Assembly: GCA_032622095.1 (NCBI GenBank)
Contig: CP136066.1
Location: 168,836,664-168,900,663 of the forward strand
Reading direction: 5' to 3'
Source of the DNA: Siphonodentalium dalli
Lineage: Eukaryota; Mollusca; Scaphopoda; Gadilida; Siphonodentaliidae
DNA: 64,000 nucleotides
Shown here: positions 5,849 through 64,000 of the stretch, in pieces
How positions within the stretch are numbered: position 1 is the stretch's first letter
Layout of the letters: the number at the start of each line of letters is the position of its first letter
The notes under the pieces: generated by a model
The model's database searches: none
Told to the model about the DNA's origin: nothing
What the model saw: only the letters and a program-made list of their open reading frames with translations
Translations under genes and position numbers: made by a program

Positions 5849-6559
5849 CTGAAATAAGAAAACCTTATTTGATGGTACTATACCTATACCGCAACACAAA
5901 TTAACATGTTTATTTTTTTATAAAGATTATGATAGGGTCTGCTCATGCGAAATAAAAGTGTTTATCAATATAAAAGATATTGATTTGTATGAATTAAAGA
6001 TGAAGACGAAGAGGAGACAAACTAATACTAATAACACCCGTATTTTGGTACTCATAGTCACCAAATATTTGTTCAACCAAAGTTATCGTTTTCAAAACTC
6101 AAGGTTTGAGGAGGGTGCCGGGAGGGTCATAAAACCCACCTATTATATCAAATATGAGAGCTTTCATCAAAGTTTGCTATTAGTGTGCTAACCATGTATT
6201 CTGCTTGAACCAAATTAAGATACCAGTAGTGGACTCAAGTTGTATGCAGCAGTTATACACTAACAGGTATGCATACATGCATGCATTTCAATATTTAAAG
6301 TGATGTGAAACACACCGGTAGGGTTATCAGATATAAATAGAAAATAATATTGTTAAAAGTTGTTAAATTTTACAAATATTATATCCAAATTGATATGACA
6401 CACCATAATTCTTATAATTTAATTAAATGTAGTGAATCTCGATGCTGACATCGTTTTCATTGTTAATTTAATTGAGCCTACTAGTAGTTCAGACGATGTT
6501 TTCAATGGAGGATTGTGGTCAATTTGCTTGAGATTTTTGGTGATGTTAGAATATTTACT
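5849..6559. other. No gene seen
   Basis: AT-rich. The open frame at 5958-6191 has no recognisable texture. Nothing else supported. Confidence 0.5.
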
Positions 6560-6890
6560 TAACTTATTGAATATTGTGCCAGTTATAGACTAGTGTTACC
6601 TCTATCGATGCACTTATCATATTATGTCTTTAGAGCAGAAAGAGCTTTGAGGGTAACATCTTTGCTCATGCAAACACCCATCGCGTTGAATTGTTTCAAC
6701 GTCTGTTAAATGATAAAACAATTATAAAATATACATAATGATGATTATTCAAATTGTGGGGAAGGGGGTATAGGAGTGTGAAAACCAAATCAGTAATACA
6801 TTTTCATTCATTTCGAAGCAGTTTAAGACAAAAGCGTCATACAACTCGAGGTATATGTTTGATACCGTACTAATGTGATAAGCGTGCATT
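6560..6890. repeat. Dispersed repeat R1, uninterrupted copy
   Basis: Contiguous from TTGAATATTGTGCCAGTTAT to GATAAGCGTGCATTATG. It serves as the empty-site reference for the copy at 2535-3460. Confidence 0.8.
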
Positions 6891-10215: not shown

Positions 10216-10518
10216 TGCATCAGGTTGCCTGCCCAAAGGAGTATGTGTGAGCTGAATCTAGATACAACAGGAAAACAACGTTGACCTGTGGTGTGATTTG
10301 GTCCCTGTGGGGTCCACCTCAATTTGTAACTTGGGCATTGATTATCAGATTACGTTGTGCTTTGGTGAGTTGATAGCCCATTTTAAGCAGAAAAGTTACC
10401 CACTTTTTACCCGAGTTTTATGGTTAATGTTTAATTCGCTCATTGGTGATCTTCAAAATATATATGCTATATTCGGTCATATTTGCACATAAGCACGTGC
10501 ATGTTTCACAAGTGCTAC

Positions 10519-10670
10519 GTTTAGTGTGGTCGTTGGAGAGTTGAACCCGGAATAAATTGGATACAAGCTGATTTTTGTGTTATTCGATGCGGAAAAACAC
10601 CAGGAACAACATATCAAAAATCCGCTCATGGGAAAATTCAGGATCCAAGATGGCGTCCACAATGTCTGTT
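10519..10670 (+). repeat. Left arm of a 2.2-kb inverted-repeat element
   Basis: Starts AGTGTGGTCGTTGGAGAG and continues GGAATAAATTGGATACAAGC to CCAAGATGGCGTCCA. The reverse complement lies at 12525-12678, with the same start reading inward. The arms are estimated at about 85 percent identical by eye. Words such as AAAATGGCC recur farther inside both arms. No transposase was found between them. Confidence 0.8.
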
Positions 10671-12524
10671 GTTATCGCAAACTACTGATTTCTGCGGTAG
10701 GTGCTCCAAATAATGCCAAATTCGTAATACATTGAAATATGTACAAACAATGCTTTGTCGTAAACCATATCTGTATAATGTATTTCCCAAAATGGCCGCC
10801 AAAATGGACAAAATCGAATGCAATTTACATGTTGTGCAAAATTGAAAATATAGTCCTATACGAGTGAACAAACTATCGAATTATGCGAGTATAAGAGAAA
10901 CTTTTGATTAGAGATGTACGAATTATCTCTAATGTATCTCACGAGAGAGCAAGCGAAACCAGGATCTTATGAAACGGTTAATTCTTGACTTTTGTACGCC
11001 CAGAAACGGAAACAAAACTTTGTATTTTCTGTACTGCTTATCTTGAATCGTGTGATATATGTGTAATTAAACAGCTAAATGGGATTTAGTAGAGATGTAT
11101 TGACTATGGGACCTTTTTCTAGAAGCAGAAAAATGTCTACTCCGAGCAGTCTCACGAATGTGACCGATCATAATTTATTTGGTTATCTACAGCATGAAAC
11201 CTTTAAAAATTAACTGATATAAAACGGTATGAAAGATATTCATATAGTACTGGGTAAAATGCGTATATTCTATTGTCCGTGTCTCAAAATAGTAGTCATA
11301 GTTGCCTCAGATCAAGTGATAAAACACGAATATTTCGCTTTTATCACAAGAATGCATGGTGGTATACCATGATCTAAATTTATTAAAACACGAAGGAGTA
11401 CCATAGACTATCGTCAATAAATTCTAAACTTGACCAAAATTGCCTACATACTCTGTGACAAAGACTGTGTTTATACCTGGAAATTATATATGGTTGAATT
11501 CACCAAGGCCACATCTACGCGAAACTTACTACGTTTTCTTCAACCGCATCACCACGTTTACTCCTTCTCCCTAATGTTACACATAGCTGCTGCACACAGA
11601 ACCACACTTGCGTGAATGTTCAACGTTGAAATAACATCTTAAACGGTGATCACTCGATATTTAGCATGATTATGTGGGTGGTAATGGTAAGATATTTTCA
11701 AACAAAAATATAATGAAAACTAATAGTGTGCATTGCGTAGCTGCATATTCCAGTTGTAAAGTTGTGATTGAAGTAATTTGAACACAATTGTCTACTAAGA
11801 ACACGGTTTGTTAGCAGCATGAAAATTAGTCTAACATACAATGTGTGTTGTACCGTCTCTTTGATATGGTGAGACGCGGTGCTAATCTATTGAAGATATG
11901 AGTGTTTCTTTACGGTATAATAAGCATTGCTACACATATGTATTGTTTAATATCACCGGGAGTGTTGACAAATCCGGAAATATAACTAACATTTAGACCG
12001 CTAGAGTATGCACTTAAATTTCGGCGTTACATTCAATAATTAATCATCATGCCGAATGAAACTACCATGAACTGTGAGGCGAAACATTAGTTCGTGTGTT
12101 GCATGTCCGATATTATTATTTTTGGCCCGACAATTGGATGTTGGATAAGCAGAACACCCAAACTTTAAAGACGCAAATCATTGGGGTTTGACTTGCGTTG
12201 CAGTGGCCGATAAATCCTTCAGATGGATCTGTTTAATGATGTGTGTACCTTTAAAGATATTCAACAACCGACTTGTATATTATCAATACATATTTTCACT
12301 CCTATGTGGTTATCCATTATGTTGCTTTCTTTGTTGCATTGCTTGCAGTTGTGGCCATTTTGACAGCCATTTCATGGCCACGATTGTATGATTTTCTGTG
12401 TGTGTCACTCTATTCGCTCCCGTACTATAATTTAACACAAACTGGTATAACGGCGTAATTCCGATGCCACAATATATCGTATAATGACTTGTTTCGAGAA
12501 CTGATGTAGTATAGACAACCATGT
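10671..12524. other. Interior of the inverted-repeat element; no gene seen
   Basis: AT-rich, with stops in all frames and several small palindromes (for example around 11315-11345, TGATAAAACACGAATATTTC with its partner GCTTTTATCAC). No domain recognised. It is consistent with a non-autonomous element. Confidence 0.5.
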
Positions 12525-12678
12525 TGGACGCCATCTTGGATAACAAAGTTTCCCCACAGCGGATTTTTGATATATTGTTCCTGAGGCTTTTCCGCGTCGA
12601 ATGACACCAAAATCAGCTTGTATCCAATTTATTCCAGGTTGACCCCCAAATTCTGTTTCAACGACCACACTTTGGACC
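12525..12678 (-). repeat. Right arm of the inverted-repeat element
   Basis: Reverse complement of the arm at 10519-10670, ending CAACGACCACACTTTGG on the plus strand. No clear target-site duplication was found outside the arms. Confidence 0.8.
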
Positions 12679-12683
12679 ATACA

Positions 12684-12903
12684 ATGAAACACATTTTGTT
12701 TGATAATAGTTTAGTCTTTTTAATCAGAAATGCATTTTTTTTTGTGTATAATATAGTGAGGAAATTACAAAACAGCAATTGTTTTTTTCAATTTTCTCCA
12801 CTTAAAATCCTTCAGCATAAAATGGAATGTGGCTTATTCTGAGAAGTTGATATAGAATGAAACACATTTTGTTTGATAATAGTTTAGTCCTTTTAATCAG
12901 AAA
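12684..12903. repeat. Short direct duplication, 173-bp spacing
   Basis: ATGAAACACATTTTGTTTGA and the following ATAGTTTAGTC..TTTTAATCAG occur at 12684-12731 and again at 12857-12903. The right copy abuts the truncated end of the KptA-like exon. Confidence 0.85.
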
Positions 12904-13062
12904 TTGTGTGCGAATCTTCTGCCAAGACGCTACCGATGTGCCGTGTAGAACCTTATCCAACTATGTGTGTGACGAGAACTCAAACAACTCCAGATATGGC
13001 ACTGGAATGGTATGTCCCTGCACCGCTCGGATCTTCCAAGTACCGTCCGCCCGATTGACAAG
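12904..13062 (-). pseudogene. KptA/Tpt1-type RNA 2'-phosphotransferase exon, broken
   Basis: An acceptor TATTTCAG (AG at 13063-13064) opens a phase-0 frame: LVNRADGTWKIRAVQGHTIP, then VPYLELFEF, an in-frame TAG (12961-12963), then LDKVLHGTSVASWQKI. Known: the KptA/Tpt1 family (tRNA 2'-phosphotransferase, which removes a splice-junction 2'-phosphate using NAD) has IRAxQGHS/T with the catalytic Arg, followed by a conserved HGT and WxxI. All three signatures are here in order and spacing. The C-terminal RxHIHF block is missing, because homology stops where the duplicated 12857-12903 segment begins. The upstream exon at 13301-13721 is phase-compatible. The TAG and the truncation make it a pseudogene as written. 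Confidence 0.75.
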
Positions 13063-13300
13063 CTGAAATATCTGCTATTATACGAATATATATAGAGAAG
13101 ATGTTTACAAACAATTATAAATTGCTTTCAAGGCAAGGGTCTCCGTTGGGGTAAGAGAACGAAACAGGGGTTTAGGTATATTTCGGCGGTTATACGTAAG
13201 ACAAAGAAGACCAAATTAGGGACTATTGTTCGTGATTAATAGTCCCTAAATTGCAGTTATTTTTCTTACATATAAGCCTCGAATAATACCGATAACTTAC
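13063..13300 (-). other. Short intron of the KptA-like gene with a hairpin
   Basis: 238 bases between the GTAAGT donor (13300 downward) and the TTTCAG acceptor. A perfect 12-bp stem TTAGGGACTATT (13216-13227) with AATAGTCCCTAA (13238-13249) lies in the middle. Confidence 0.6.
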
Positions 13301-13721
13301 CACTTTAGTATAGGTGGACGGAACCATCTATATACTCATATCGCCTCATGCCGACATCCCAGGCAAAGAGCTTGTATTTCTTTTCAACAAAATACGAAAA
13401 CAATCGCTCCATGTGGGCAATGTCGGAGGGTGCGTACATGCTTCTCAGGTTCACCCATTCCATAAAATGTCTCTAGTTTAAACCGTTTACCCACACAAAG
13501 GCGCACAATATTACTCTTCCACAATGTCTCAGGTTTGACGTCCAAAATGATCTGCTGATTTCGCCAGGCCACTGCGATAACGGCCCTACCGCATCAACTA
13601 TCTCCATCCAAACTTTATATTCTGTTCTATTTTCGTTGTCACTCATAGCTACTACTTTCGGAGAATGAAAAATATCGAGGGACATATAAAAAATAGGGTT
13701 CACGGAGTTCAATTGATGCAT
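13301..13721 (-). pseudogene. Upstream exon of the KptA-like gene, domain unknown
   Basis: The frame runs MSDNENRTEYKVWMEIVDAV, GPLSQWPGEISRSFW, then RVILCAFVWVNGLN. After an in-frame TAG (13473-13475) it continues HFMEWVNLRSMYAPSDIAHM, then KKYKLFAWDVGMRRYEYIDG and SVHLYTKV. It ends exactly at GTAAGTTAT, a consensus donor, in phase 0, matching the next exon. I do not recognise this N-terminal region. It is not the usual LRHxP start of Tpt1. It could be a partner domain in a multi-domain protein. The start codon is uncertain. Confidence 0.6.
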
Positions 13722-13734
13722 GTAATAGTCGCTT

Positions 13735-14064
13735 GCACTTCCCTATAACATGACAATCGATCAAGTGGGGCGTCGTCTAACTCATATGGGGCATCTTTGA
13801 TTGTGACTAATGTAGTTCTATTCTCAACGTCTTTAGGTCTCACAATGATCCCTTATATTATCAAGCCTCTTGGATCAATTCATTGTTGTGTTCAAGAGTA
13901 CTTACAATTATCAAGCATAAATCGTTAGTGATTTGAATAGAACGCACTGGATCGCCGGGTATTATCCTCTCAACACTACGCAAAACATCCGCGCCATTAA
14001 GGCGGCCGAATAGTCCAGTACCGAAACTTGATGTCAGTGGTCTCTTCAGCCTCGATGAAGACAT
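13735..14064 (-). pseudogene. Retroelement gag/ORF1-like fragment
   Basis: Two frames read as one protein. The first (13861-14064) includes DVLRSVERIIPGDPVRSIQI and ends HNNELIQEA. The second (13735-13845) reads RPKDVENRTTLVTIKDAPYE, then LDDAPLDRLSCY. Known: the pattern of a short RRM-like unit followed by VTIKDAPxEL and a second RRM-like unit is seen in zinc-knuckle gag/ORF1 proteins of retroelements and in ZCCHC3-like proteins. No zinc knuckle was found. The assignment is by texture only. Confidence 0.5.
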
Positions 14065-14224
14065 GTTGATCTAACTGCCGTTAATGGTCGCAGTGTATGT
14101 TCCGCACCAATATAGCTACCCAATGTACGAAATATATTCAGCGACTGTTGGTTTAGTATGCTTAAATCAGTAAATTTGTTTGCTGTTTTCAAAATATGCT
14201 AACATCCGCCATATTAACCAGAAG

Positions 14225-14660
14225 TTAATTGCATTGCAATAAAACTACTGAGTTGGGTGGAATGATTGTAGTATGATTTACAATAACTCTAGATATTTTT
14301 GGACTTTCGGTAACAACTTGTTGTATTTTGAAATCCAAATTTGGCTCTAATTGAAGAACACCTTTGCATACATCAATTTGGGCTTGATGTTTTATCAGAA
14401 ACTCCAAACCTAATAACATTGGGTCTTCAATTGGTCCGACATAAATTTTCTCGCAGAAGTGTTTATCTCCTATTGTTATTTCCACTGGACCTATTAAATG
14501 ACCTTTGAATTTGGAATTCCTGGTGGTTGTATTAATAGAAATTGTTTTAACAATTTGGGGTGTTGTTTTCAAATTCGAGAACGTTTCTTCAGAAATTATA
14601 GTAATATCTGCAACGGTATGTATCTATCACTGCTTCCGTACTATAATTAGATATACCAAT
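14225..14660 (-). pseudogene. LTR-retrotransposon aspartic protease remnant
   Basis: The minus frame 14225-14572 contains VEITIGDKHFCEKIYVG, then LLGLEFLIKHQAQIDV and GVLQL. Known: the LGLDFL..h.a.ID...G.L block is the C-terminal part of retropepsin-like proteases in gypsy-type retrotransposons. Just upstream, other frames give AVIDT and ADITIISEETF, the surroundings of the catalytic DTG. They are separated by a frame change, and the DTG itself is not intact. No reverse transcriptase or LTR was found nearby. Confidence 0.7.
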
Positions 14661-15084
14661 GGGTGTTCTAATTGCAGATAATGATTTAATTATATTAATT
14701 GTGAGAATGGTTTCATTCTCTTCTGGTACCAAATAACGTTTATTATCTCAACTTGTTTTCTGCGAATTAATATTGTCGTTTCTCACAAATTTTGGTGAAG
14801 TTTGGTGTTGATAAAACATTTAATGAAAAATGTGTTCATGATATTTTTAAAATCAAATCGACTAACACTTAACCAATCTGGAAAAGATTTTCTGGTCTGG
14901 AGTCTGGAAAGTGGTTGACAACATTTACATGAAATTGGAAGGCCGCGTGTATATGAATTTGTGATATACGTCCATTTTAATCCTTAATTTACTAAAATTT
15001 ATTTCTATTTGTTTTTTATTGTGGGTTTATGTGCTAATTACCGGAATATGATATTCTGGTTTTGGCAATGTTTCTCATAAATTC
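14661..15084. other. No gene seen
   Basis: AT-rich; possibly further decayed retrotransposon upstream of the protease, but no motif could be read. Confidence 0.5.
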
Positions 15085-15300
15085 ACTTGACTTATTGGAT
15101 ATTTTGCCATTTATTGACTAGTATTACCTCGATCGATGTCTTCATTGATATGATGTCCTTATCATATTCTGTCTTTAGAGCAGAAAGAGCTTTGATGGTA
15201 ACATCTTTGCTCATGCAAACACATATCGCGTTGAATTGTTTGAACGTCTGCAAAGAGTAAAATCCAAAATGGACGCTGGCAGCCATGTTTTTTGGGATGT
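15085..15300. repeat. Repeat R1 left half, third copy, plus tandem-family fragment
   Basis: 15085-15250 matches 2535-2695 and 6560-6705. It is followed by CAAAGAGTAAAATCCAAAAT and GGCAGCCATGTTTTT, words of the tandem family seen at 33.2-33.8 and 47.5-48.2 kb. Confidence 0.75.
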
Positions 15301-16984
15301 GCTAAACACTAAACATCTATATATGCATATTGAACATAGAAATAAAATAATTATTTAGTACAGCAACTCATTGTGTTCCCACCCAGAGACTTTGTAATTT
15401 TGAATGCACTCTAAATCACACTGTGTAATCACATAAATGTGGTTCAGTCCCAAATCCAGTTTTCAATAGTTATATGTTCACAGTGTAATTCAATTATTTC
15501 TTCATATGACCAAGTAGACGAGTTATTCAGTCATAGTGACATTGAGAGAAATAGAGCTTAGATCCCATGTTTTATGAGAAAAAGTCTTGCACATAAGCGT
15601 ACCTCTATGACATTTCCATATAAAATATTGAAATAAATGTCAGTATTTTCTTTTATTAGATTATATCATTTTATTGTTGTTTGGCTTAAATCATACTTAC
15701 ACCATACAAAATCAAACATATAAAAGTAGAATTGAGCATTTATTTGTGCATTGAGGTCAGAATTAATTACACAGAGTTATTTGGTATAAAACTGTTGAAT
15801 TGTGTAGGCACGATTAATGCTACACAACAAAACAAGTGACAATAGTGACATTTCTGTCAATACAACTATGACTGAAACCTGGTCTAAGTGATACATCATA
15901 TATGTACTTTATTTGACTCATCACAGACTTTTAAAAAGACTATCTGAGACAGGTAACAGATAATCAGAAATTAATGCTTCTCAGGGCTGCATTATAAATT
16001 TGTGTCAGCGGGAAAAATTTAAACCTATGATAGGAATAAAGTTGTTTTTATTATTATATATAAGATAACATTGATAGACCCATATGCCATATGTTCTAAG
16101 AGCAGCATATTTTATCATATCAATCTTGTTGCACAAAGTGTATCATCTGTCCTTGATCCAAGCATGTAGGAAATGGATGCCTGCTTCAAAGGTGAACTAC
16201 TTTATCTTCTACATACAGGTCAAATTTCCTATAAAAAAAAGAAGTGATACAAAATATATAAGTAATTCAAAATAACAGTCAAAATATAAATTGGTCCACA
16301 TTCAATAAAATAATTTTGTGGTTGGAATGCACATCAAATTCAAAGGCTTGGGTTGAAGGTTTCTATTTTGAAGCATGGCATGAATGGCATGCAATCAGCA
16401 TGAATGGACAAGCAGCCACCGGTGGCGTTTTCCCCCACCTACATGTAGATGGGCAAATTTGGGGATGGGCCTTATCAAAATATGCTAAAAAATAATTTAA
16501 ATCAGTGTTAATATTTGTTTTAGTTTGGGCTTGGTTTTGTTAGATTGAGCAAGGAATTCAATCTTTAAAAAAATATATATATTAAAACAATATATATAAA
16601 TCAAAATGTTTCAATGACCAAATGTGCTTGAAGCGCACAAAGTGGCCACCGCTAAATGAAGGCTCTGTCTAAGATCAAGATGTGTGCGAAGTCCCACAAA
16701 GGGGGCCACTGGTAGCTCCGATGCTGAATATAGGCCCCCAAAGGGGGCCTTTTTCACCTAGTTTAGTATAATGGAAGTAAGTTGCATAAGTGGTGTGGAA
16801 TATGTTAGATAATGGGCTGGTTGACAAACTAATCAGGAATATAGTTAGAAATTATGAAATTGTGTGTATTCTGCACAATGACTTAGGTTTACAGATGATC
16901 AGCAATTTATAAAACATTTTTTGTTCAATTAAAACAGCTTCTGAAAAAGGTTAAACTGTTACTCAATCCAATTAAACACCCTTA
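15301..16984. other. No gene; one GC hairpin
   Basis: AT-rich without coding texture. AGGCCCCC (16732-16739) pairs with GGGGGCCT (16743-16750). It is followed by T5 and resembles a bacterial terminator by chance. Near 16640-16720, AAGCGCACAAAGTGGCCACC and AAGTCCCACAAAGGGGGCCA form a weak direct repeat. Confidence 0.5.
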
Positions 16985-23037: not shown

Positions 23038-24612
23038 TATATGTGCAAAGTACAAAAATATGCCTCGATAAGAAATATGAGGAACAACCCATATATAGAA
23101 TGAGTCAATGGAATCATTGGAAGGGTTTTTTCTATAAAGATCAATAGAAATATACAAGACACTACCTTAAAAAAAACGATTAATAACATTGTGGAAGAAA
23201 TTTGCCCATTTGGAAATAATTTGCCACTGAAATTAATTATTACATTTTTAAATGTTTTGTTTGTGGGTGGGGGGGGGGGGTAATAAAATTGTTAGGGTAG
23301 GTCTGAATCAAGGGCAGGTGGTTGCCGAAAAATGCCACCATTGTTTTTGGGGGTAGGGCTAATGAGGGCTGGTTTCAAAGATTGCACAATAGCTATGTCA
23401 AAGAAACCAGCTTTGACATACAAAGAAATACTTGATCGGTACCTTTAATTTAAACCCAACTCTAGTTTACTCCACCTTACTCCACCAACCGGCCCTGGAG
23501 CCCATGCAAATGAATACTAGTAACTAGATAGCACATGTGTACACAGTTCTTGTTGAAACCATACTAGTACTCATAAAGCTGCATGATACTGAGTCTGGAG
23601 ATTACAATAGGGTGTTTTTCTATTATCAACAGCAAGCATTATGTCAGTGTCAGCCAATCACAACATTTATCAATAAAGCGATGCAGGATCATGCAGCCAC
23701 TCAGATGATTGTCAGAATTGGTATGCAGTGGTAGATTTGCCACATAGCTAAATATAGTGCTATAAAAAATGTCACATTAATAATTTTACACAAAATTAGA
23801 GATTGTGACACCCAACTAAACTCTAAAAGCATATGTGAAGAGTACATAATTGACCAATAATACCTAGCAAAGTGAATAGAAGTACGTATTTCCAAGAAAT
23901 TCAAGAGTTAACAACAATTTTAAGTGGCCAATATACAGGAGATACATGTATCTGTCATTTCTAAGATATTTTGTGCGCTGTGGCATCATACTACGCCAGC
24001 TGCATGCAGATGTTAACTATAGCAACACAGCTATGTTCTTACTCTTTATCACACAGCTATACGAGTATGGTTTCAACTAGAACTGATGTGTACAGGAAAC
24101 CATGCCGGTAATAAACATAAACTAGATTTAACTGAAATGCTAAATATCATCAACGAGGGCCGATAACGATCGGCAGATGTTAACCCATCCCTTGGCGATA
24201 GTAAATTACTATGATCGGAATCATAAATGAGAGTTTTGGTGTTGAATTATAGAGTATACTGTTATGTACTATTATAGACAAATAAATGTACATAACACAC
24301 ATTATTGGAATTTATGGGTCACTCGCATTTATATAAGAGAATGCACTGGTACAACTAAACCACCACAGCCTTGGGTTAAATGTGAAAGGTGGCCTGGACA
24401 TGGAATGCTTGGGTTAAGAGAGTCCAATTTAAGTTTACAATAATAATGTATCAAATTTATTGAAACTTGGTATGTGGTCTTCATTTATGAAAAAGTCCAG
24501 TAATAAATTATAAAGAGCGTTATTAAAAATAATATATTGATAAAGTTATACGGAAAATCGGGAATACATGCCACACATTAGGTTTGTCAAGTTATATATT
24601 GGCTGCCATTGT
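23038..24612. other. No gene seen; G12 run
   Basis: AT-rich. A run of about 12 G starts near 23269. Open frames such as 23537-23734 lack recognisable texture. CGCATTTATATAAGAGAATG near 24327 repeats a word at 20285. Confidence 0.5.
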
Positions 24613-25632
24613 CTTTCTAAGTGAAAATAATCATAACATTTCATGAATATGCCATAAAAGTGAAGTAAATGAGTTTATAATAACCGATTATTATATGATG
24701 TTATTTGATATTACACCACAAGCATGATTAATTCAGTGTGCAGGTTATAGCCCCCTGATGTTCGTGTTGATTCCAAACACAGACGGGCGGATGTTAATGC
24801 AGGCCCTCACTCCACATGGATGGCTCGCTTCTTGGGCCGCTGAATGGCGGAATCTGCTGGCGAGTTAGTCGATCCCTTATGACTAGTGCTGGTCTTAGTT
24901 TTCATTCGCTTATATGTTCCATGTGGCCATTTCACAATATACCCCTCATATTTTGTATCGAGCCATACGAAGCGGGTGCCAAATGAGTCGAGCCGAGCCG
25001 ACTTTATCCGTTTTGTCTAATCCATTTACCGAAATGAACGGAGAAAAGTTTGTCCTGTCCCAGAATCGGGGGTTGAAAGTCACAACAAATTGTCTAACGT
25101 GGCGAGTCCGCAGGTTGGCCGGACCTATTACTTCCTGAATTAACGCCCATTGTCGACACGTTTCGCGGTTTCTGTTCCGGCGAAGTTGTGCTGCCACATT
25201 CATTTTAATAATGACGAATTTCACGAAAATGAACAACAATAGTGCCATTGATAGTTGTATTACAATTAAGCATTCCTTTGCCACTTTTCAACACATCCAT
25301 GTTATGTTGGAAATCACCGGAATTCCGAAGTCTCAGGAGTTCATTTTTCTTTTCAGTCGAATTTTTCTCGAGATGCAGAATTGCTTTGATTTCCTTTTCA
25401 CCACTATGGGGCCCAAAAAAATGTTTGTCAAATTCGTAAATCCATACTGACAAAAAAGGCAGAAGTGAATTTTATCCCAGCGTCTTTTTCCTCCGTCATT
25501 ATTGCGTGGCTGTACCGTGATCATGTTCTGAGACATTTCGGGGTTAACAGTGTGGTCTAGTCCTCGTGACTAGAACCCTGTGCCAGATGTGCCTCATTTC
25601 TGGGAGAGTTTGCAGCAGGAAAGTATTCTGAA
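24613..25632. repeat. 1.0-kb direct duplication, copy 1
   Basis: Runs from CTTTCTAAGTGAAAATAATC to GTTTGCAGCAGGAAAG. Copy 2 is 25961-26960, same orientation, offset 1348. Differences include one T in a T run near 25423 and 18 bp (CTTTTCAGTCGAATTTTT) present only here. A block TTCCTGAATTAACGC near 25130 is also present only here. Copy 1 retains sequence also present in the third copy at 2369-2520. Confidence 0.9.
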
Positions 25633-25846
25633 ATAGGCGCAAAATCTTCTGACATGTCCGATATATATCCATCGCAACCTTCCATTTCATCATTAGAGAC
25701 GTCTCCATCAGAAGTTTGCGGATCATAATCTGGATCTGCCCGGGATTCAGAGATCTCTTGGTATTCATCTGAGGTATTCCATTCACTTGTTTATTCAGCT
25801 TAGCCTCGACATCTGCTGCTGAGAATTTGTATTTCCGAGAAATGAG
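24807..25846 (-). pseudogene. Zinc-finger protein of unknown function, 3' exon
   Basis: After a strong acceptor ACTTTGCTTTTCAG (AG at 25847-25848) the frame reads LISRKYKFSAADVEAKLN. A one-base break leads to an acidic stretch (TSEWNTSDEYQEISESRADP, DEMEGCDGYISDMSEDF) and YFPAANSPRNEAHLAQGSS. Then come KRRWDKIHFCLFCQYGF, FGPHSGEKEIKAILHLEKNS and RLRNSGDFQHNMDVLKSGKG. A final coding block FGTRFVWLDTKYEGYIVKWP, HGTYKRMKTK, ending RPKKRAIHVE, stops at 24807-24809. The CxxC with a downstream His resembles a C2H2 finger. From memory, WDKxHxCxFC plus GDFxHN occurs in many uncharacterised fish and marine-invertebrate proteins, probably of mobile origin. Several frame breaks are present. Confidence 0.65.
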
Positions 25847-25960
25847 CTGAAAAGCAAAGTTAAAAAAATTAATTCAGTCTTCAACCCAGAAAAATAAAAT
25901 TAAAAAAAATCGGGAAAAATAATTCGAAAAAACAAAACAAAACATTTTGTGGGTAGTTTT

Positions 25961-26960
25961 CTTTCTAAGTGAAAATAATCATAACATTTCATGAATATGC
26001 CATAAAAGTGAAGTAAATGAGTTTATAATAACCGATTATTATATGATGTTATTTGATATTACACCACAAGCATGATTAATTCAGTGTGCAGGTTATAGCC
26101 CCCTGATTTTCGTGTTGATTCCAAACACAGACGGGCGGATGTTAATGCAGGCCCTCACTCCACATGGATGGCTCGCTTCTTGGGCCGCTGAATGGTGGAA
26201 TCTGCTGGCGAGTTAGTCGATCCCTTATGACTAGTGCTGGTCTTAGTTTTCATTCGCTTATATGTTCCATGTGGCCATTTCACAATATACCCCTCATCTT
26301 TTGTACCGAGCCATACGAAGCGGGTGCCAAATGAGTCGAGCCGAGCCGACTTTATCCGTTTTGTCTAATCCATTTACCGAAATGAACGGAGAAAAGTTTG
26401 TCCTGTCCCAGAATCGGGGGTTGAAAGTCACAACAAATTGTTTAACGTGGCGAGGCCGTAGGTTGGCCGGACCTATTACGTGCCCATTGTCGACACGTTT
26501 CGCGGTTTCTGTTCCGGCGAAGTTGTGCTGCCACATTCATTTTAATAATAACGAATTTCACGAGAATGAACAACAATAGTGCCATTGATAGTTTTATTAC
26601 AATTAAGCATTCCTTTGCCACTTTTCAACACATCCATGTTATGTTGGAAATCACCGGAATTCCGAAGTCTCAGGAGTTCATTTTTCTCGAGATGCAGAAT
26701 TGCTTTGATTTCCTTTTCACCACTATGGGGCCCAAAAAAATGTTTTGTCAAATTCGTAAATCCATACTGACAAAAAAGGCAGAAGTGAATTTTATCCCAG
26801 CGTCTTTTTCCTCCGTCATTATTGCGTGGCTGTACCGTGATCATGTTCTGAGACATTTCGGGGTTAACAGTGTGGTCTAGTCCTCGTTGTAAACTAGAAC
26901 CCTGTGCCAGATGTGCCTCATTTCTGGGAGAGTTTGCAGCAGGAAAGGATTCTGAAAAGA
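25961..26960. repeat. 1.0-kb direct duplication, copy 2
   Basis: Second copy of 24613-25632. It lies in the intron between the 27888-27997 exon and the 25846 acceptor of the minus-strand gene. The finger region (26542-26960, minus) is open through QYGFTNLTKHFFGPHS, which copy 1 breaks by one T. It lacks the six residues STEKKN seen in copy 1 and lacks the upstream acidic exon. Confidence 0.9.
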
Positions 26961-27091: not shown

Positions 27092-27757
27092 GTGCCACCG
27101 CACACGCTGCGATTAAAATCGTAAGTGGGGAAAATCGTAGGAGGAAGCATCCAATGCGCATGCCCACGACAATATCGTAGCCAAATCGTAGCGATCAAGC
27201 ACTGTTTGATTTTGACAGGAAAATCGTGGCACAACATTGGCAACACGCGCGATCATAGCTGTCACATGACCACTGTCGCACTGGTCATGTTGTAAATACC
27301 ACGAAAAGAAAACATTCAAAAATGGCGCAAAGTTTACAAACTTCTTGCACTTACAAAAACGAGTCCACATTGGTGGAGATGTCGCATGACAGGGAGTGCA
27401 GGCCTATACCACATATCAGGTAAGGAGTAGAGGGCTGCCGCAATTGTTGAAATTCAATTGGGGCAGCTGAGCCTGTTGAGTTGACAGGTACAACAATTAT
27501 GTCAAAATAAAAAAAATATTCAATTTCACTTGAACTTTCAAAATCAACTTGTTAGTTTAGAAAATTGAGATACATGTCATGTACATGTATTTAGTTGCAT
27601 AATTCGGAGAATGTGGTATAACATTTTGCTATCATGTCATCGACCACGTGGATAAAATCGTAGCTGCAAATATCGCAGCACCGTAGCGTCTGTGGGCAAG
27701 TCACTTTTCTCCACCTGCGATTTTCCCCACTTACGATTTTAATCGTAGCGTCTGCAC
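27092..27757. mobile_element. PIF/Harbinger-like MITE, TTA target site
   Basis: Near-identical inverted ends around CGATTAAAATCGTAAGTGGG and GGAAAATCG. The outer bases are GTGC/GCAC, flanked by TTA (27089-27091 and 27758-27760). The left end holds about six extra bases before ACGCT. TTA duplication fits PIF/Harbinger. The interior repeats AAAATCGTAGC words and has no transposase. It lies in the intron of the minus-strand zinc-finger gene. Confidence 0.7.
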
Positions 27758-36841: not shown

Positions 36842-38335
36842 ATGCCTATGCCATTGCAGTTAGCATGGGCAATCAATAACAACAAGAGAAGGCAATGCCC
36901 TGGTTGTAAACAGTGCTATAGTCCAAGATACATGGAAAGGCATAAGGAGGTGTCTTTTTTAGATGGTAAATGGGTGTGTGCCCCCAATCTATCTGGTAAT
37001 GAAGTTGCAAATAATCATTCAAATAGTACTTGTAACTCAGATTTTTCTGCGGACTCAAGTGGCAATCATAAAAGAAAATTCCACAAACATTCTTCTGAAT
37101 GTAACTCTTCAGATGATGAAACTGATGAAACGTTTCATTTGAATCTTAGAAAGTTAGTGCACTCATCTATCCCTGCTGCTGATTTGGATGAAATTATAAA
37201 CTCAAATGATCATGATATTGTGGAAAATTGGGATGATAGAGAAGAAGACATAAATGATGATTTTCAAAAATCTCAAAACGGAGCAGGTGGTCTGAATGAG
37301 ATTGATGAAGAGACATCCCCACAGGCTAATATATTTGTCTGGTTGTTCTCATTCATTTGCAAATGGCAGGTGTTTTATAATATCACCGATGCAGCTATAG
37401 ACTCCCCGCTAGGTTTCCTTGGCACATTCCTTGACAAACTTTCCTTATTAATTCCCGTTCTGAATGAGATATCGGGTACATTCCCACGAACTGGCTATCG
37501 TTTATGGAAAAAATTGGGTATTAAAAGGATTGTTTCGTGAAGTATGTAACTTGCCCGCATTGTTGTGCACTTTACCGTTTTGATGATTGTGTAGTTCGAC
37601 AAAACGGGCTCTTAAAGTCTGCCTCTTGTAAATTTATCCAATTTCCCAGGCACACACAAAAATTTCGTAGGTCTCGATGTAATGCACAACTTCTTAGATC
37701 TGTCAAACTGTCTTCTGGTAGTACAAAAATGTACCCATTCAAAACATACTGCTATAAACCTGTTGCCGAAACTTTAGAACGTTTTCTTTTCAGAGAAGAT
37801 TTTTATGATAAATGTCAATTGTGGAGAACAAGAAAGATGACAAATGGTTACTTGCAGATATCTTTGATGGCAGAGTTTGGAAAGAGTTTGCATCCTCTAA
37901 ATTTGATAATTTTTTAGATAATCCTTACAATTTTGGAATAAAGATAAATCTTGATTGGTTCCAACCCTTTGAACATGTACAGTACTCAGTATGTGTACTT
38001 TGTGGCGTCATTGTTAACTTACCTAGGGCTGATAGATTTAAAATGCATAATATCATTCTCATCGGTATCATACCAGATTTGTCCAGTGAACCCAGAGTAA
38101 ATACATTTTTGGAACCATTCATTGCTGATATGGAGAAATTGTGGGAGGAAGGTATGACTGTTAAACTAAATACGGGAAAAAGCATAACAATAAAAGCCGC
38201 TATCATGTATATAGGTTGTGATATTCCTGCCTCTCGCAAATTATGTGGGTTTTTGGGTCAAACAGCAACTCTTGGTTGTTCCAAATGCAAAAAAAATCCT
38301 TCCCAGGTGGTGTACCTGAGTATATATTAGATTAG
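36842..38335 (+). pseudogene. CACTA/EnSpm transposase (Tnp2 family), three frame breaks
   Basis: An N-terminal zinc-binding block CPGCKQCYSPRYMERHK is followed by an acidic linker. The Tnp2 body then reads WQVFYNITDAAIDSPLGFLG, CPHCCALYRFDDC, FPRHTQKFRRSRC, INLDWFQPFEH, VIVNLPRADRFKMHNI, EPFIADMEKLWEEG, CDIPASRKLCGF and GCSKCKK. Known: this order matches transposase family tnp2 (PF02992). CDIPA carries one of the catalytic acidic residues. The reading frame changes at about 37525, 37845 and 38290. Each change is repaired by one extra A in an A run. Coding ends at 38335 after a VPEYILD-like segment, so the C-terminal catalytic part is missing. No CACTA termini were located. Confidence 0.88.
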
Positions 38336-49165: not shown

Positions 49166-49728
49166 TTAGTTGCTTGCGACCGCTTCTCTGATGTTGTAAA
49201 GTAATTGGTCAACGTCCTCAACGTGAGACCGGAAGGATGAGATGCACACACGAAGATAGTGGACGCCTCCAATCACTGTTCCGTGGAAGCATGCGATATA
49301 ATTATGGGAGAATTGTTTAGCTATGCGAATGTTAATCTCGTCGATATCACAACCAGGAGGTTCGTATCGGAATAGAACAATACAAAGTTTAGGCCGACAA
49401 ACAATCCGCATGTTGGGAATTTTACCAATCTGCTCCGCTAGATACTGTGTAAGCTGGAGTTTCTCTTCGATCACTTTTTTGAAGAAATCTTCTCCCAAAA
49501 CTTTAAGTGATATCCACAAAGGAAGACCGGTTATTGGTCTGGTTAGTTCGAATGTATAATCCATTGGATTGTATTTTGTCGTATCTGTAACCAGGTAGTC
49601 ATGACCATCCGCGAAGTACATAGTTTCAAACAATTTTGAGCCATTTCTTACAATCAAAGCCCCGAATCCACGCGGCTGAGCCAATAGCTTATGGCAGTCT
49701 ATACTGATTGAGTCTCCTCGCTCTATGC
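49166..49728 (-). CDS. Group II PLP-dependent decarboxylase, last exon
   Basis: The acceptor TATCTTTGCAG (AG at 49729-49730) is followed by two bases completing a Gly codon, then IERGDSISIDCHKLLAQPRG. Known: in group II PLP decarboxylases (PF00282) the Lys of the HK pair forms the Schiff base with PLP. The D-x-HK-x3-QP form is that of bacterial L-2,4-diaminobutyrate decarboxylases, not the NPHKW of animal aromatic-amino-acid decarboxylases. The rest (LTRPITGLPLWISLKVLG, RYEPPG, VIGGVHYLRVCISS) matches the C-terminal domain, ending at TAA 49166. The frame is intact. Substrate specificity cannot be read from this. Expected in the cytosol. Confidence 0.88.
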
Positions 49729-50895
49729 CTGCAAAGATAAATTGATGAGCGGACGGTACGTTACTAGCAAAAAATTCAAACCGGCTATAAATAAAGCACG
49801 CATCGCTACAGTCTACATTACAGTAAGAGTCGACTGCTGGGCTAGTTGGACATATTGTTTGTCATATGGAAAACCAATGCCAAGAAGTAAGAATTATACG
49901 ATTGGCAACGCTACCGAGGTTTATGCTCAGTGCGTGGTTCTTAGTTGCGATCATATTTTCAAGAGACCTGCAGTATTTGGTATCGATAAAAGGACACAAG
50001 TAACTGGTGAAAGCTCGGCTATGTTGATAGAGAGTTTGAGGAAAAGTTCAGACAGCCTGCTCTCGCAAAAATGAGCACAATACGGGCCTATTTTGAGTGT
50101 CGCATTTTCGGCCCATACAGCCTATTTGAGGAAAAATACGCTCGATTTGGGCGTAAAATATGTCGTAAACTAAGCTCATATTGTCACTATTTAATCTGCT
50201 TTTTTAATCGACACGACTTACCAGATGAACATTTTTTTTATAATGTGTGTTAAATGCGACCCGCGCCATTCAGCAGAATAACGGGTATTAGTTCTACATG
50301 AGCTTATTTCAGAATCAAATATGTCCAATATGAATCTATTTGCAGGGGGATATCTTGAGTTCAGACTGATCAGCTAAAATGTGCTACACTGGCCACAGAA
50401 TATTAATTATTAGCAGAGGATTCGCGATTCGTCCGCGATTTAAAGGCATGGGTGGCGCTCGTTATAGAAATATTAATATTTGTTCAAATTGCCATTAACG
50501 GAAGGAATATTAAAATATATATATATAGTTTTGTTCATATGCCAATCATAATCAGCGCGTAAATAGTATATTGTCGTCAATGCGAACGATGGTGTATGTA
50601 AACAAGAACCTTCTTGTGTTACAGAAGTTTTGCTTCTGTTTACATAACAGAACGCAATTATATTTAATCACACACAAACGCTCTTTATGATTTCGATATC
50701 AGGAAAACAGTAACAAATAACGCTCTTTATGTTTACCATATCCGGATCTAAACAAAAGCCAGGAAAAGTAACGTTTTTTTTGCTTTTGTTTACATAACAA
50801 AGGAAAACAGTATTCGACAATACCATACTGTTTATGCCATATTTCTTATTGGTATAAGTACAAACTCTGTCTATATTGTACTATTCTTTCTGATT

Positions 50896-60600: not shown

Positions 60601-61800
60601 TGTACTTACTGGAATCATGATACCAGTAAGTATACTTATCTTTCCTCATGACTTTGTTGTATTTTTGTATACACTATAGATGATTTTGATTTTGATATGA
60701 CAAAATGTCAAAGCAGAAGATATGCATTCATGTACACAGGTGTGTAAACATACACAATTTCTGACAGGCTATACAGGTATATTTAGTAGTTATTAATACT
60801 TACACTCACATAATGGTAGCCTACATATTCACTGCATTTGATCCTAAAGAGGCATGACCAAATCCGTGTACCACCTTCGGGAATGATGTTTGCCAGCCTA
60901 CAGAATACTGAGTCAATGGGTTAATCGCCTGCACTAGAGGCATTATTGTAACCACCACGTGTTTTAGTCGAATCCATTTAAATAAAACCGAAGACACCAT
61001 AAAACTGTTTGTGCAACAATTGCCTGACATTTACACAAACCGTTTGAATGAATGTAAACTCCGAGTAACTTTTATAAGAAATAAGAATAGCTCAAATGTG
61101 ATGTTTTCAAGTTTCTTGCACACGAGACGACTCCGATATTTCACGAATCCGATGTGATCAAAATGACCTTGACATTTATTATTATTGAATTAGGTCATGT
61201 TGTGACAGTACAGTCAGGTCCGAAACATTCCGAGCACAATTAAGTCAACTCTATTAAGACGAATTAATTCATGAATTTAGATTTCTTTTGAAAACAAATT
61301 ATCCTTTGTCAAATATAATCAGAAGTCGGTATACCATACATGTACATACATTCATTTATAAATCTTCATGTTTTATTAATATAGATTCTTGTTCATGTAT
61401 TTTCAACATATTGGCCCACACTCGTACATTTAGCCATATAGGTCTATATGCCTATACGTATATTATGGAGTTATCTATTTATACTATGACGTAAGTCCTC
61501 GTTGCGGGTCAATTAGATAGCCTACACGTCAAGTCACAGATATGCACTTTTTTGGCAATACTTTCATGAGAAAATAACAAGCGGAATTTGAAATGTTAAT
61601 TGACCGTCGATTGATTCGTACACGAGGACTTACCAGAAACATATACCCGCCGAATACAACACATCATTAAAATAATATGTACTTCATATTACGGTTAGCT
61701 CTGGTAACAATGCACGGACTATACATATTCATGCTTGCATCTTTAATTCATTCTGAAGTGGAGGGCATACATTTCATTCATTCCATTATAGGTCGTACTC
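60601..61800. other. No gene called
   Basis: A minus-strand stretch 60810-61000 holds an ATG frame (MDSTKTRGGYNNASSAG) with a TAA and a following GTAAGTATT donor-like site. Evidence is too weak for a gene call. The rest is AT-rich. Confidence 0.4.
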
Positions 61801-64000
61801 ATGGCTACACATAACGTAAATTTGAGTGAGGTTCGGGATTCTGATGAATATAACTTTACAATGAAATGGAACGAAGCGGAACAGGAAAATGACGATTATT
61901 TAAATTCCGCTATTAATACCTGCAATGAATGTGGATACATTTCACCATCACACACTATAGATCAATCAAATAAAAAACCAAAATTTTCAATATTCAGCCT
62001 CAACTGTCGAAGCATCAATGCAAATTTCGATTCTTTGTGTAATCTCCTATGCGACTTAAAGTCGAATAATAATTCATTCGACGTTATTGCTTTAACTGAA
62101 ACATTTAAAATACGACAAGCATCGCACTTCCAAATACCGGGATATTACCCTATGGAATTCAAGTGTAGGGCTGATGACGATGATGGTAGAGGTGGTGTAT
62201 GCCTTTACATAAAAGATTCCATTCACTATAAAAATCGACCCGACCTTAGTGAATTTATTCCACACGTAATAGAAACAATATTCGTGGAAATTAACCCAGG
62301 AAAAAATGACTCTCGTATAATCGGCTGCGTTTACAGACCAAATACCGCACCAAAGGCCAACGTTGATAATTTTTTGAAAAAATTCGACGATATTCTAAAA
62401 AAAATTAATAACCACAAATCATATATATCAGGAGACTTTAATATTGACCTACTCAATTTCAACTCGCATACAAAAACGAACGATTTCATAAATAACATTT
62501 TCACAAGAGGATTCGTGCCAAGGATAACTAAACCTACTCGAATGACTGATCATTCAGCAACTCTCATCGATAATATATATACCAATAACCTACAAGGCGA
62601 ATGTAAATCTGGCATAATCACATGCGATGTTTCCGATCATTTCGGCATATTTTATTCAGAATCTAACCAAAAGAGACAAAACAGCACCAATAATAACGAA
62701 GCTATCACTAATCAAAGAAGTTTTAGTCCTGATAACATAATTAGATTCAAAAATCTTTTTAAATCTTGTACCTTTGACTCCGTCACATCTTGTAGAAGTG
62801 TCGACCAAGCATATGAAATCTTCTTAGATATCTATATGAATGCATATGAACTAGCTTTCCCCATCAAAAGTCGACATATGCCCAAAAAATTAATAAAACG
62901 CAATCCTTGTATGACAGCTGGATTGATTAAGTCAAGTATTATTAAGAACCAGCTATATTTACACAAATTGAATAAACCCACGGAAACGAACGTAAATAAA
63001 TATTTGAGCTATCGTACCTTATATAATAAACTAATCAGAAGGAGTAAAAATATATACTATACAAATATTCTAGAAGTAAATAAAAATAACTTAAAGAAAA
63101 CATGGGAAATACTTAAGGGTGCATTGAAGATAAATGGAAACACAAATAATAACCCAAGACCTTTACCGAAAACGGAATAGAACTTGAAAATTCCAAACTC
63201 ATATCGGAAAAGTTCAATGACTTTTCTAAAAAATTGGGCGGGAAACTAGCCAACTCAATGAACATGAAAATGACTCTCATTTTACAGATTTTCTCCAAAA
63301 CCGCAAACCAGACGACATCAATTTCAAAATAATTCCGACCTCTATACAGGAGATCATCCTCACGTGTTTCTCTATGACTGGGAAAGTATCAAGGGATTTC
63401 AATAGTATATCAACTAAACTTATCAAGGAAACAATTGAGGAGATAGCCCCAGCATTATTGCATATTTTTAACTTGTCCTTAGAGCATGGAATAGTCCCTA
63501 ACAAAATGAAAATTTCTAAAGTAGTCCCGATCCCAAAAAATAATACCACTCATGAAATTTCCAACTACAGACCTATCAGCATTCTTCCAACTATCTCTAA
63601 AATCCTCGAAAAAATAATGCATAAACGATTATTAGACTTCTTAAATGAACAAAACATACTCTATAAACACCAATACGGCTTCCGTCCTAATCATTCAACC
63701 TTCCATCCTGTATTACACCTCCTCGATCAAGTTGTCTCAAATAATGACAAAATGACAAGAGATTCCACTTTAGCTCTATTTCTCGACCTCTCAAAAGCAT
63801 TTGACACAATAAATCACGATATTTTACTCCTTAAACTAGATCACTATGGTATACGAGGCACAGCATACTCATGGTTTCAGAGCTATCTGCAAAATAGAAG
63901 GCAATATGTTGAACTCAATGGTATTAAATCTAAATTAACGGAAGTGACGTGCGGAGTGCCACAGGGATCAATCCTGGAACCGATAATTTTCTTAATTTAC
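61801..64000 (+). pseudogene. LINE ORF2: APE endonuclease and reverse transcriptase (runs off window)
   Basis: From an ATG at 61801 the frame covers an AP-endonuclease: SLNCRSI (residues 67-73), ALTET with the metal-binding Glu (100), SGDFNIDLL (Asp212, Asn214) and SDHFGIF (Asp279-His280). Two one-base frame changes follow (about 63153 and 63250). The RT then reads NYRPISILPTISKILEKI, YGFRPNHST, LFLDLSKAFDTINHDI with the first catalytic Asp, and CGVPQGSIL. The window ends before the YxDD motif. Known: this layout belongs to the CR1/L2/Jockey superfamily. The two breaks are repaired by one A each. No ORF1 lies immediately upstream. Confidence 0.92.

Follow-up and report, generated by a model that had tools for sequence, protein, structure and literature searches.

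The window analysed here is a stretch of 64,000 nucleotides on contig C6 of the scaphopod mollusc Siphonodentalium dalli (C6:168836664-168900663), the genome of which amounts to 2,226,750,531 bases in nine contigs. Its minus strand carries, at 12908-13076, a fragment of about 56 codons of a KptA/Tpt1 RNA 2'-phosphotransferase domain with one in-frame TAG. The original prediction, made from the letters alone, took this piece for the second of two exons; its coordinates proved correct, and the whole feature reads on the minus strand. This supposed exon B (13062-12904) contains IRAVQGHT, HGT and WQKI, in that order, in a single frame. Translated with X at its TAG, it matched PF01885 with E=5.5e-7 and 30.2 bits over profile positions 71-117 of 177, better than background and above the gathering score of 26, and the KptA/Tpt1 signature is thus real. 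When it was compared by hhalign with a profile of phage KptAs, the probability was 93.9% (E=1.6e-7); the profile was derived from an IRAVQGH pattern scan of IMG/VR that returned 37 loci, seven of which were KptA by eye and six of which were used. A tblastn search of plasmids and phages with exon B found nothing, no relatives of it were confirmed in IMG/VR and GTDB contigs, and a search of phages with the DNA of 12900-15400 gave no match.

Further parts of the domain were not found at E 0.1 in Pfam searches of 10501-12903 and 13063-15400 in all three minus-strand frames. In Tpt1, Arg18, His19 and Arg68 belong to the RNA lobe and Arg121 lies further on (PMC6333775). All four fall outside the window fragment, which covers profile positions 71-117 alone and has neither the Arg-His-Arg-Arg tetrad nor both lobes; it is therefore a relic, not an enzyme, and its description as a decayed KptA copy was correct. 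The short duplication that had been noticed at the truncation point was also found: a 53-bp direct repeat, 96% identical between 12679-12731 and 12852-12904, the latter copy of which sits at the break where KptA homology stops. Homology to the sister loci and to the mobile element described below ends at 12908. A pair of 126-nt inverted repeats (10544-10669 and 12515-12640; 84% complementary, 1.8 kb apart) lies just past the broken KptA end.

The KptA piece had been joined, in the original prediction, to an unrecognised upstream region by two phase-0 exons flanking a 238-bp intron. On that view the window would contain a genuine gene of two exons, or a pseudogene, with KptA attached to a novel N-terminal domain. 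GTAAGT and TTTCAG are indeed present on the same strand. The supposed intron (13063-13300, minus) contains an imperfect hairpin at 13175-13290 with 53-nt arms, and its part at 13063-13076 is KptA coding sequence: where the window has the supposed TTTCAG acceptor, the element has KQRFQLVNRADGTWKIRAVQGH. In the frame that starts with the M at 13646, the GTAAGT donor is in phase 1 and not in phase 0, so that the phases disagree, and a TAA stands just before the donor, which brings the in-frame stops to three instead of the two TAG codons reported.

Two sister loci elsewhere on C6, L046 and L048, decide the matter. A duplicon block at 13075-13838 (minus), which bears no relation to KptA and contains the supposed N-terminal region (frame A) and part of a gag-like relic, corresponds to L046:6387-7151 and L048:7500-8264 with 96.7-96.9% DNA identity, and the KptA block at 12908-13076 corresponds to L046:3312-3480 and L048:4415-4582 with 94-95% DNA identity. 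In both sister loci a distance of about 2.9 kb thus separates the two blocks. At 13075-13076 the window sequence leaves the one sister flank and continues as the other, CT being common to both, and the position is thus a deletion junction with a 2-bp microhomology, at which about 2.9 kb are missing in comparison with L046 and L048. The fusion is a deletion artefact that joined the KptA piece to an unrelated reading frame, and a two-exon gene at this place is extremely improbable.

Frame A itself (13308-13646, minus; 113 codons with one TAG) is 92-93% identical at the protein level to L048 and L046. Strong matches to it were confined to these two of the 23 loci searched, and in the other 21, copies of the element included, the best match had E=2, which also argues against a gene of two exons. 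Searches of this segment for PF01885 or any other Pfam domain, and of PHROGs and PDB, gave no match; its single NCBIfam match (E=0.046) was far under the cut-off, and no relatives were confirmed in IMG/VR and GTDB contigs. The idea that frame A is a diverged Tpt1 N-lobe was rejected, as 51 of 150 shuffled sequences equalled its score against a profile of the phage KptA N-lobe, with which all six left-out KptAs scored more than 100. Eight phage records retrieved with the second half of frame A (best E 0.2) were taken as chance matches, and the AlphaFold model (mean pLDDT 53.9) was too low in confidence for use.

A repeated module on the minus strand (2359-2525, 25013-25172 and 26361-26509) is weakly similar to residues 1-57 of frame A, with 28-32% identity, the best score being reached by 2 of 1000 shuffled queries; frame A may thus once have been coding, which is the other point in favour of a two-exon gene. 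Two of the three copies stop at the same VNGLD point. The differences between copies (7, 4 and 7 of 53 by codon position) reveal no third-position excess. A tandem duplication of about 1.3 kb at 24609-26957, the ungapped blocks of which are 97-100% identical, holds two of these frame A-like modules. An exon-like module, also on the minus strand, occurs in three copies (2523-2689, 6553-6707 and 15082-15250) that are 78-86% identical; it consists of a CAG acceptor, FKQFNAMGVCMSKDVTLKALSALKTEYDKDIISMKTSIE or something near it as coding sequence, and then GTAA in two copies and GTA-A in the third. The copy at 15095-15301 had no Pfam match.

Gag-like and protease relics had been named as neighbours on the same strand. 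The protease was supported: a relic of an aspartyl protease of the retroviral type lies at 14228-14623 (minus), with a match to PF13975 (E=0.0023) that is below the gathering score. Over 85 amino acids it is 47% identical by tblastn to the protease of the KptA-bearing element (L056, L058 and L060), and on this likeness it is probably left over from a related element. The gag assignment was made by eye (13712-14070, minus) and found no such backing, as the piece at 13864-14070 had no Pfam match. The piece at 13712-13852 is 88-90% identical at the protein level to L046 and L048, and up to 13838 the gag-like relic is part of the duplicon common to these two loci.

Elsewhere in the window, a Transposase_21 (tnp2) domain is encoded on the plus strand at 37812-38327 (E=5e-17), and the open frames of a non-LTR element run along the same strand from 61792 to 64000, with an Exo_endo_phos match (E=3.6e-9) followed by a frame at 63230-64000 that is RT-like by eye. 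A fragment of a pyridoxal-dependent decarboxylase is present on the minus strand at 49169-49861 (PF00282, E=2.5e-15). MITE-like inverted repeats of 46 nt (27100-27145 and 27710-27755) are 91% complementary, with 564 nt between them. Scans of the window for tRNAs and for Rfam families at the gathering threshold gave nothing.

At least 83 PF01885 matches, all over the cut-off, were found in the genome, and the homologues are thus not single-copy, as an ordinary host TRPT1 gene would be. The top score of 168.8 bits is common to seven of the at least 83 matches, and the window fragment ranks 82nd among the 83 listed. Near-full-length matches, which start at profile position 10 or before and end at 169 or after, make up 39 of these 83, and the other 44 are partial. 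Thirty-two of the 39 are free of stops and seven contain one; 22 of the stop-free, near-full-length matches lie in frames of at least 800 amino acids, spread over all nine contigs.

A full domain resides in the third open reading frame of an LTR retrotransposon, and carriage of KptA by a mobile element, raised as a possibility from the window, is strongly supported genome-wide. Two copies were examined, one on C2 of about 15.3 kb (L057:1915 to L058:7333) and one on C1 of about 15.8 kb (L059:1761 to L060:7694). In each, the LTRs are 509 bp long and identical within the copy; once one base is trimmed, they have TG..CA ends and are flanked by 4-bp target-site duplications (AAGT/AAGT and TAGT/TAGT). 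The identical LTRs together with these duplications suggest recent integration of the two copies. ORF1 of the C2 copy has gag matches below the Pfam cut-off (Retrotrans_gag, 4.1e-4; PNMA, 6.2e-4; L058). Its pol begins with gag-asp_proteas (1.9e-9), RVT_1 (4.4e-24) and RT_RNaseH (3.9e-17) and continues with Integrase_H2C2 (4.4e-19), rve (1.8e-15) and PHD (1.4e-10). The order protease, RT, RNase H, integrase is found in L058/L057 and, from RT onward, in a further locus, L051; as judged from this domain order, the element is a giant LTR retrotransposon of the Ty3/gypsy type. ORF3 of the C2 copy is 1492 amino acids long. Its residues 1-659 had no Pfam match, a full PF01885 domain (168.8 bits, profile 3-177) occupies about 669-844, and TatD_DNase (5.5e-37) about 1232-1490. 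TatD proteins are, as the Pfam name indicates, DNases. ORF1 contains an internal tandem repeat of unequal extent in the two copies (L058:4299-4800 and L060:4162-4920).

The window fragment is 87-88% identical in DNA sequence to the element copies L038-L044 and 87% to L057. It is closer to four sister relics, with 94-95% identity to L046, L047 and L048 and 91% to L049, all of which are minus-strand loci within a span of about 0.3 Mb, from 168.57 to 168.84 Mb of C6. A 285-bp stretch of the window at 1362-1646 is 95-96% identical to L046:7209-7493 and L048:8322-8606 and shares its duplicon with the KptA relic. The four relics in this small region, all in one orientation, would also be expected if the fragment came from a host TRPT1 gene family that had been duplicated on C6 and from which the retrotransposon took its KptA. 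Among solved structures, moreover, the KptA of the element is closest to TRPT1: its best PDB match was 7yw3 (tRNA 2'-phosphotransferase 1, which we take to be human TRPT1) with 104.9 bits, followed by 7yw2 with 93.9, and the best entry outside these two reached 62.9 bits. This lead points to capture of the element KptA from an animal-type gene. However, all four sister loci match the element copies L038-L045 over 707-962 bp with 84-89% DNA identity, L049 has further, rearranged blocks of ORF3 beyond the KptA domain, and a complete open KptA is present in none of the four: L046 has LRI where the element has LRH, L047 and L049 contain stops, and L048 is split over two frames. Descent of the fragment from a host gene family is accordingly very unlikely, and the piece in the window is, very probably, a dead ORF3 fragment of the giant KptA-TatD LTR retrotransposon. 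The fragment sits in a duplicated block on C6, in which a deletion has put it beside an unrelated frame. Of the original proposal, mobile carriage of KptA thus stands and the fusion with a novel partner does not.

Frames that combine KptA and TatD occur in four diverged lineages (L057, L050, L051 and L052). In L051, RT, RNase H, integrase and PHD are followed by KptA (4.3e-42) and TatD (1.2e-37). L052 encodes a PNMA gag (1.1e-7, above the cut-off) and PHD and then KptA (5e-33) and TatD (1.3e-39); its matches to the integrase end are weak and below the cut-off. L050 has a frame of 894 amino acids with KptA and TatD, upstream of which a protease-like stretch was found by tblastn. Over the aligned codons of the six possible pairs, the KptA domains of the four lineages are 35.5-45.1% and the TatD domains 38.4-45.1% identical. 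The TatD domain covers profile positions 1-253 of 253 of PF01026 in L057, L051 and L052, and its best PDB match is 1yix, deoxyribonuclease YcfH, with 57 bits. In a simple pattern scan for TatD metal-site motifs, L057 contained DSHFH, GEIGLD, HCF and ETDAPY; TatD patterns were also seen in L051 and L052, and in L050 the scan found neither HCF nor ETD. The KptA tetrad motifs, taken after PMC6333775, appear in L057 as LRH, KQRF and RQHIHF, accompanied by HGT, and their counterparts are present in L051; the same simple scan detected neither K-x-R nor QGH in the KptA of L050 and no LRH in that of L052.

ORF3 might be a passenger, a captured host sequence of no benefit to the element. Many of the KptA copies are broken or partial, and the active-site patterns differ between lineages, as would be expected of such a sequence. 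On the other hand, the pairing of KptA with TatD has persisted across four lineages with widely diverged KptA domains, and in the two KptA pairs that gave a finite dS by the NG86 method, dN/dS was low: dN 0.177 and dS 1.017 over 196 codons for L057/L053 (dN/dS ~0.17), and dN 0.026 and dS 0.100 over 185 codons for L050/L055 (dN/dS 0.26). Between lineages, the NG86 dS was not finite for KptA and was absent or above 2 for TatD. We consider a mere passenger unlikely.

A function in the healing of nucleic-acid ends is put forward tentatively, as a reading somewhat less likely than not. KptA, captured from a host TRPT1-like gene, may have been kept in ORF3 by selection because it would heal nucleic-acid ends for the element. 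It removes 2'-phosphates by way of ADP-ribosylation (PMC6333775), and KptA-like enzymes can transfer ADP-ribose to phosphate ends of both RNA and DNA (PMC11833690). The ORF3 enzyme could remove 2'-phosphates from element RNA or from the tRNA primer after cleavage by the host, or could alternatively ADP-ribosylate the phosphate ends of these molecules. TatD might trim the ends of the cDNA. The net effect would be repair or shielding of the element RNA, of a cleaved tRNA primer or of cDNA ends. More generally, it is conceivable, though somewhat less likely than not, that several diverged giant LTR lineages use their KptA-TatD accessory protein to mend or protect the ends of element RNA and cDNA in the face of host nucleases. 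If so, KptA-TatD would be a module for anti-defence or for replication fidelity, such as phages have and, with KptA alone, a few animal RNA viruses, but which the literature searched does not describe for retrotransposons.

The retention of KptA over such a long divergence next to a DNase domain suggests that RNA with 2'-phosphates or otherwise damaged ends genuinely hinders reverse transcription in the host. In fungi RNA 2'-phosphotransferase is essential for tRNA splicing, and it is inessential in exemplary bacteria (PMC6333775); a gene of Mytilus chilensis annotated with PF01885 is among those reported as differentially expressed (PMC11817969). The element offers a direct route to asking what KptA does in this host, and it indicates that LTR elements acquire repair enzymes, as some viruses do.

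The feature in the window is a dead scrap; the LTR retrotransposon with its KptA-TatD reading frame is real, unusual and recently mobile. No KptA- or TatD-bearing LTR retrotransposon was found in a limited, mostly open-access body of literature; the passage of PMC5408686, a paper that mentions both TatD and LTR retrotransposons, has no bearing on such an element. In its LTRs, short target-site duplication and order of protease, RT, RNase H and integrase, and probably in its gag-like ORF1, the element resembles Ty3/gypsy (Metaviridae). It is unlike them in its PHD finger after the integrase, in its ORF3 of 1492 amino acids with KptA and TatD, and in its length of 15.3-15.8 kb in two copies. Its KptA is like Tpt1/KptA (PF01885; 7yw3) in having the full domain (3-177) and, in the L057 lineage, LRH, K-x-R, HGT and R-x-H-I-H, but differs in that the domain lies, together with TatD, inside a mobile-element protein of 894-1492 amino acids. 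The second domain is likewise akin to the TatD nucleases (PF01026; 1yix) in its overall match (E=5.5e-37) and in the four motifs seen in L057, whereas here TatD forms the C-terminal domain of a retrotransposon reading frame. KptA has been described as an accessory of jumbo phages, sawfly nucleopolyhedroviruses, Bodo saltans virus and two animal RNA viruses (PMC9503650). In the latter two, the Beihai picorna-like virus and the Botrylloides leachii nidovirus, KptA is part of the viral polyprotein and, as in the present element, belongs to the accessory equipment of a selfish element (PMC9503650). By this likeness of description, the element from S. dalli stands beside these RNA viruses, from which it differs in being an LTR retrotransposon and in combining KptA with TatD.
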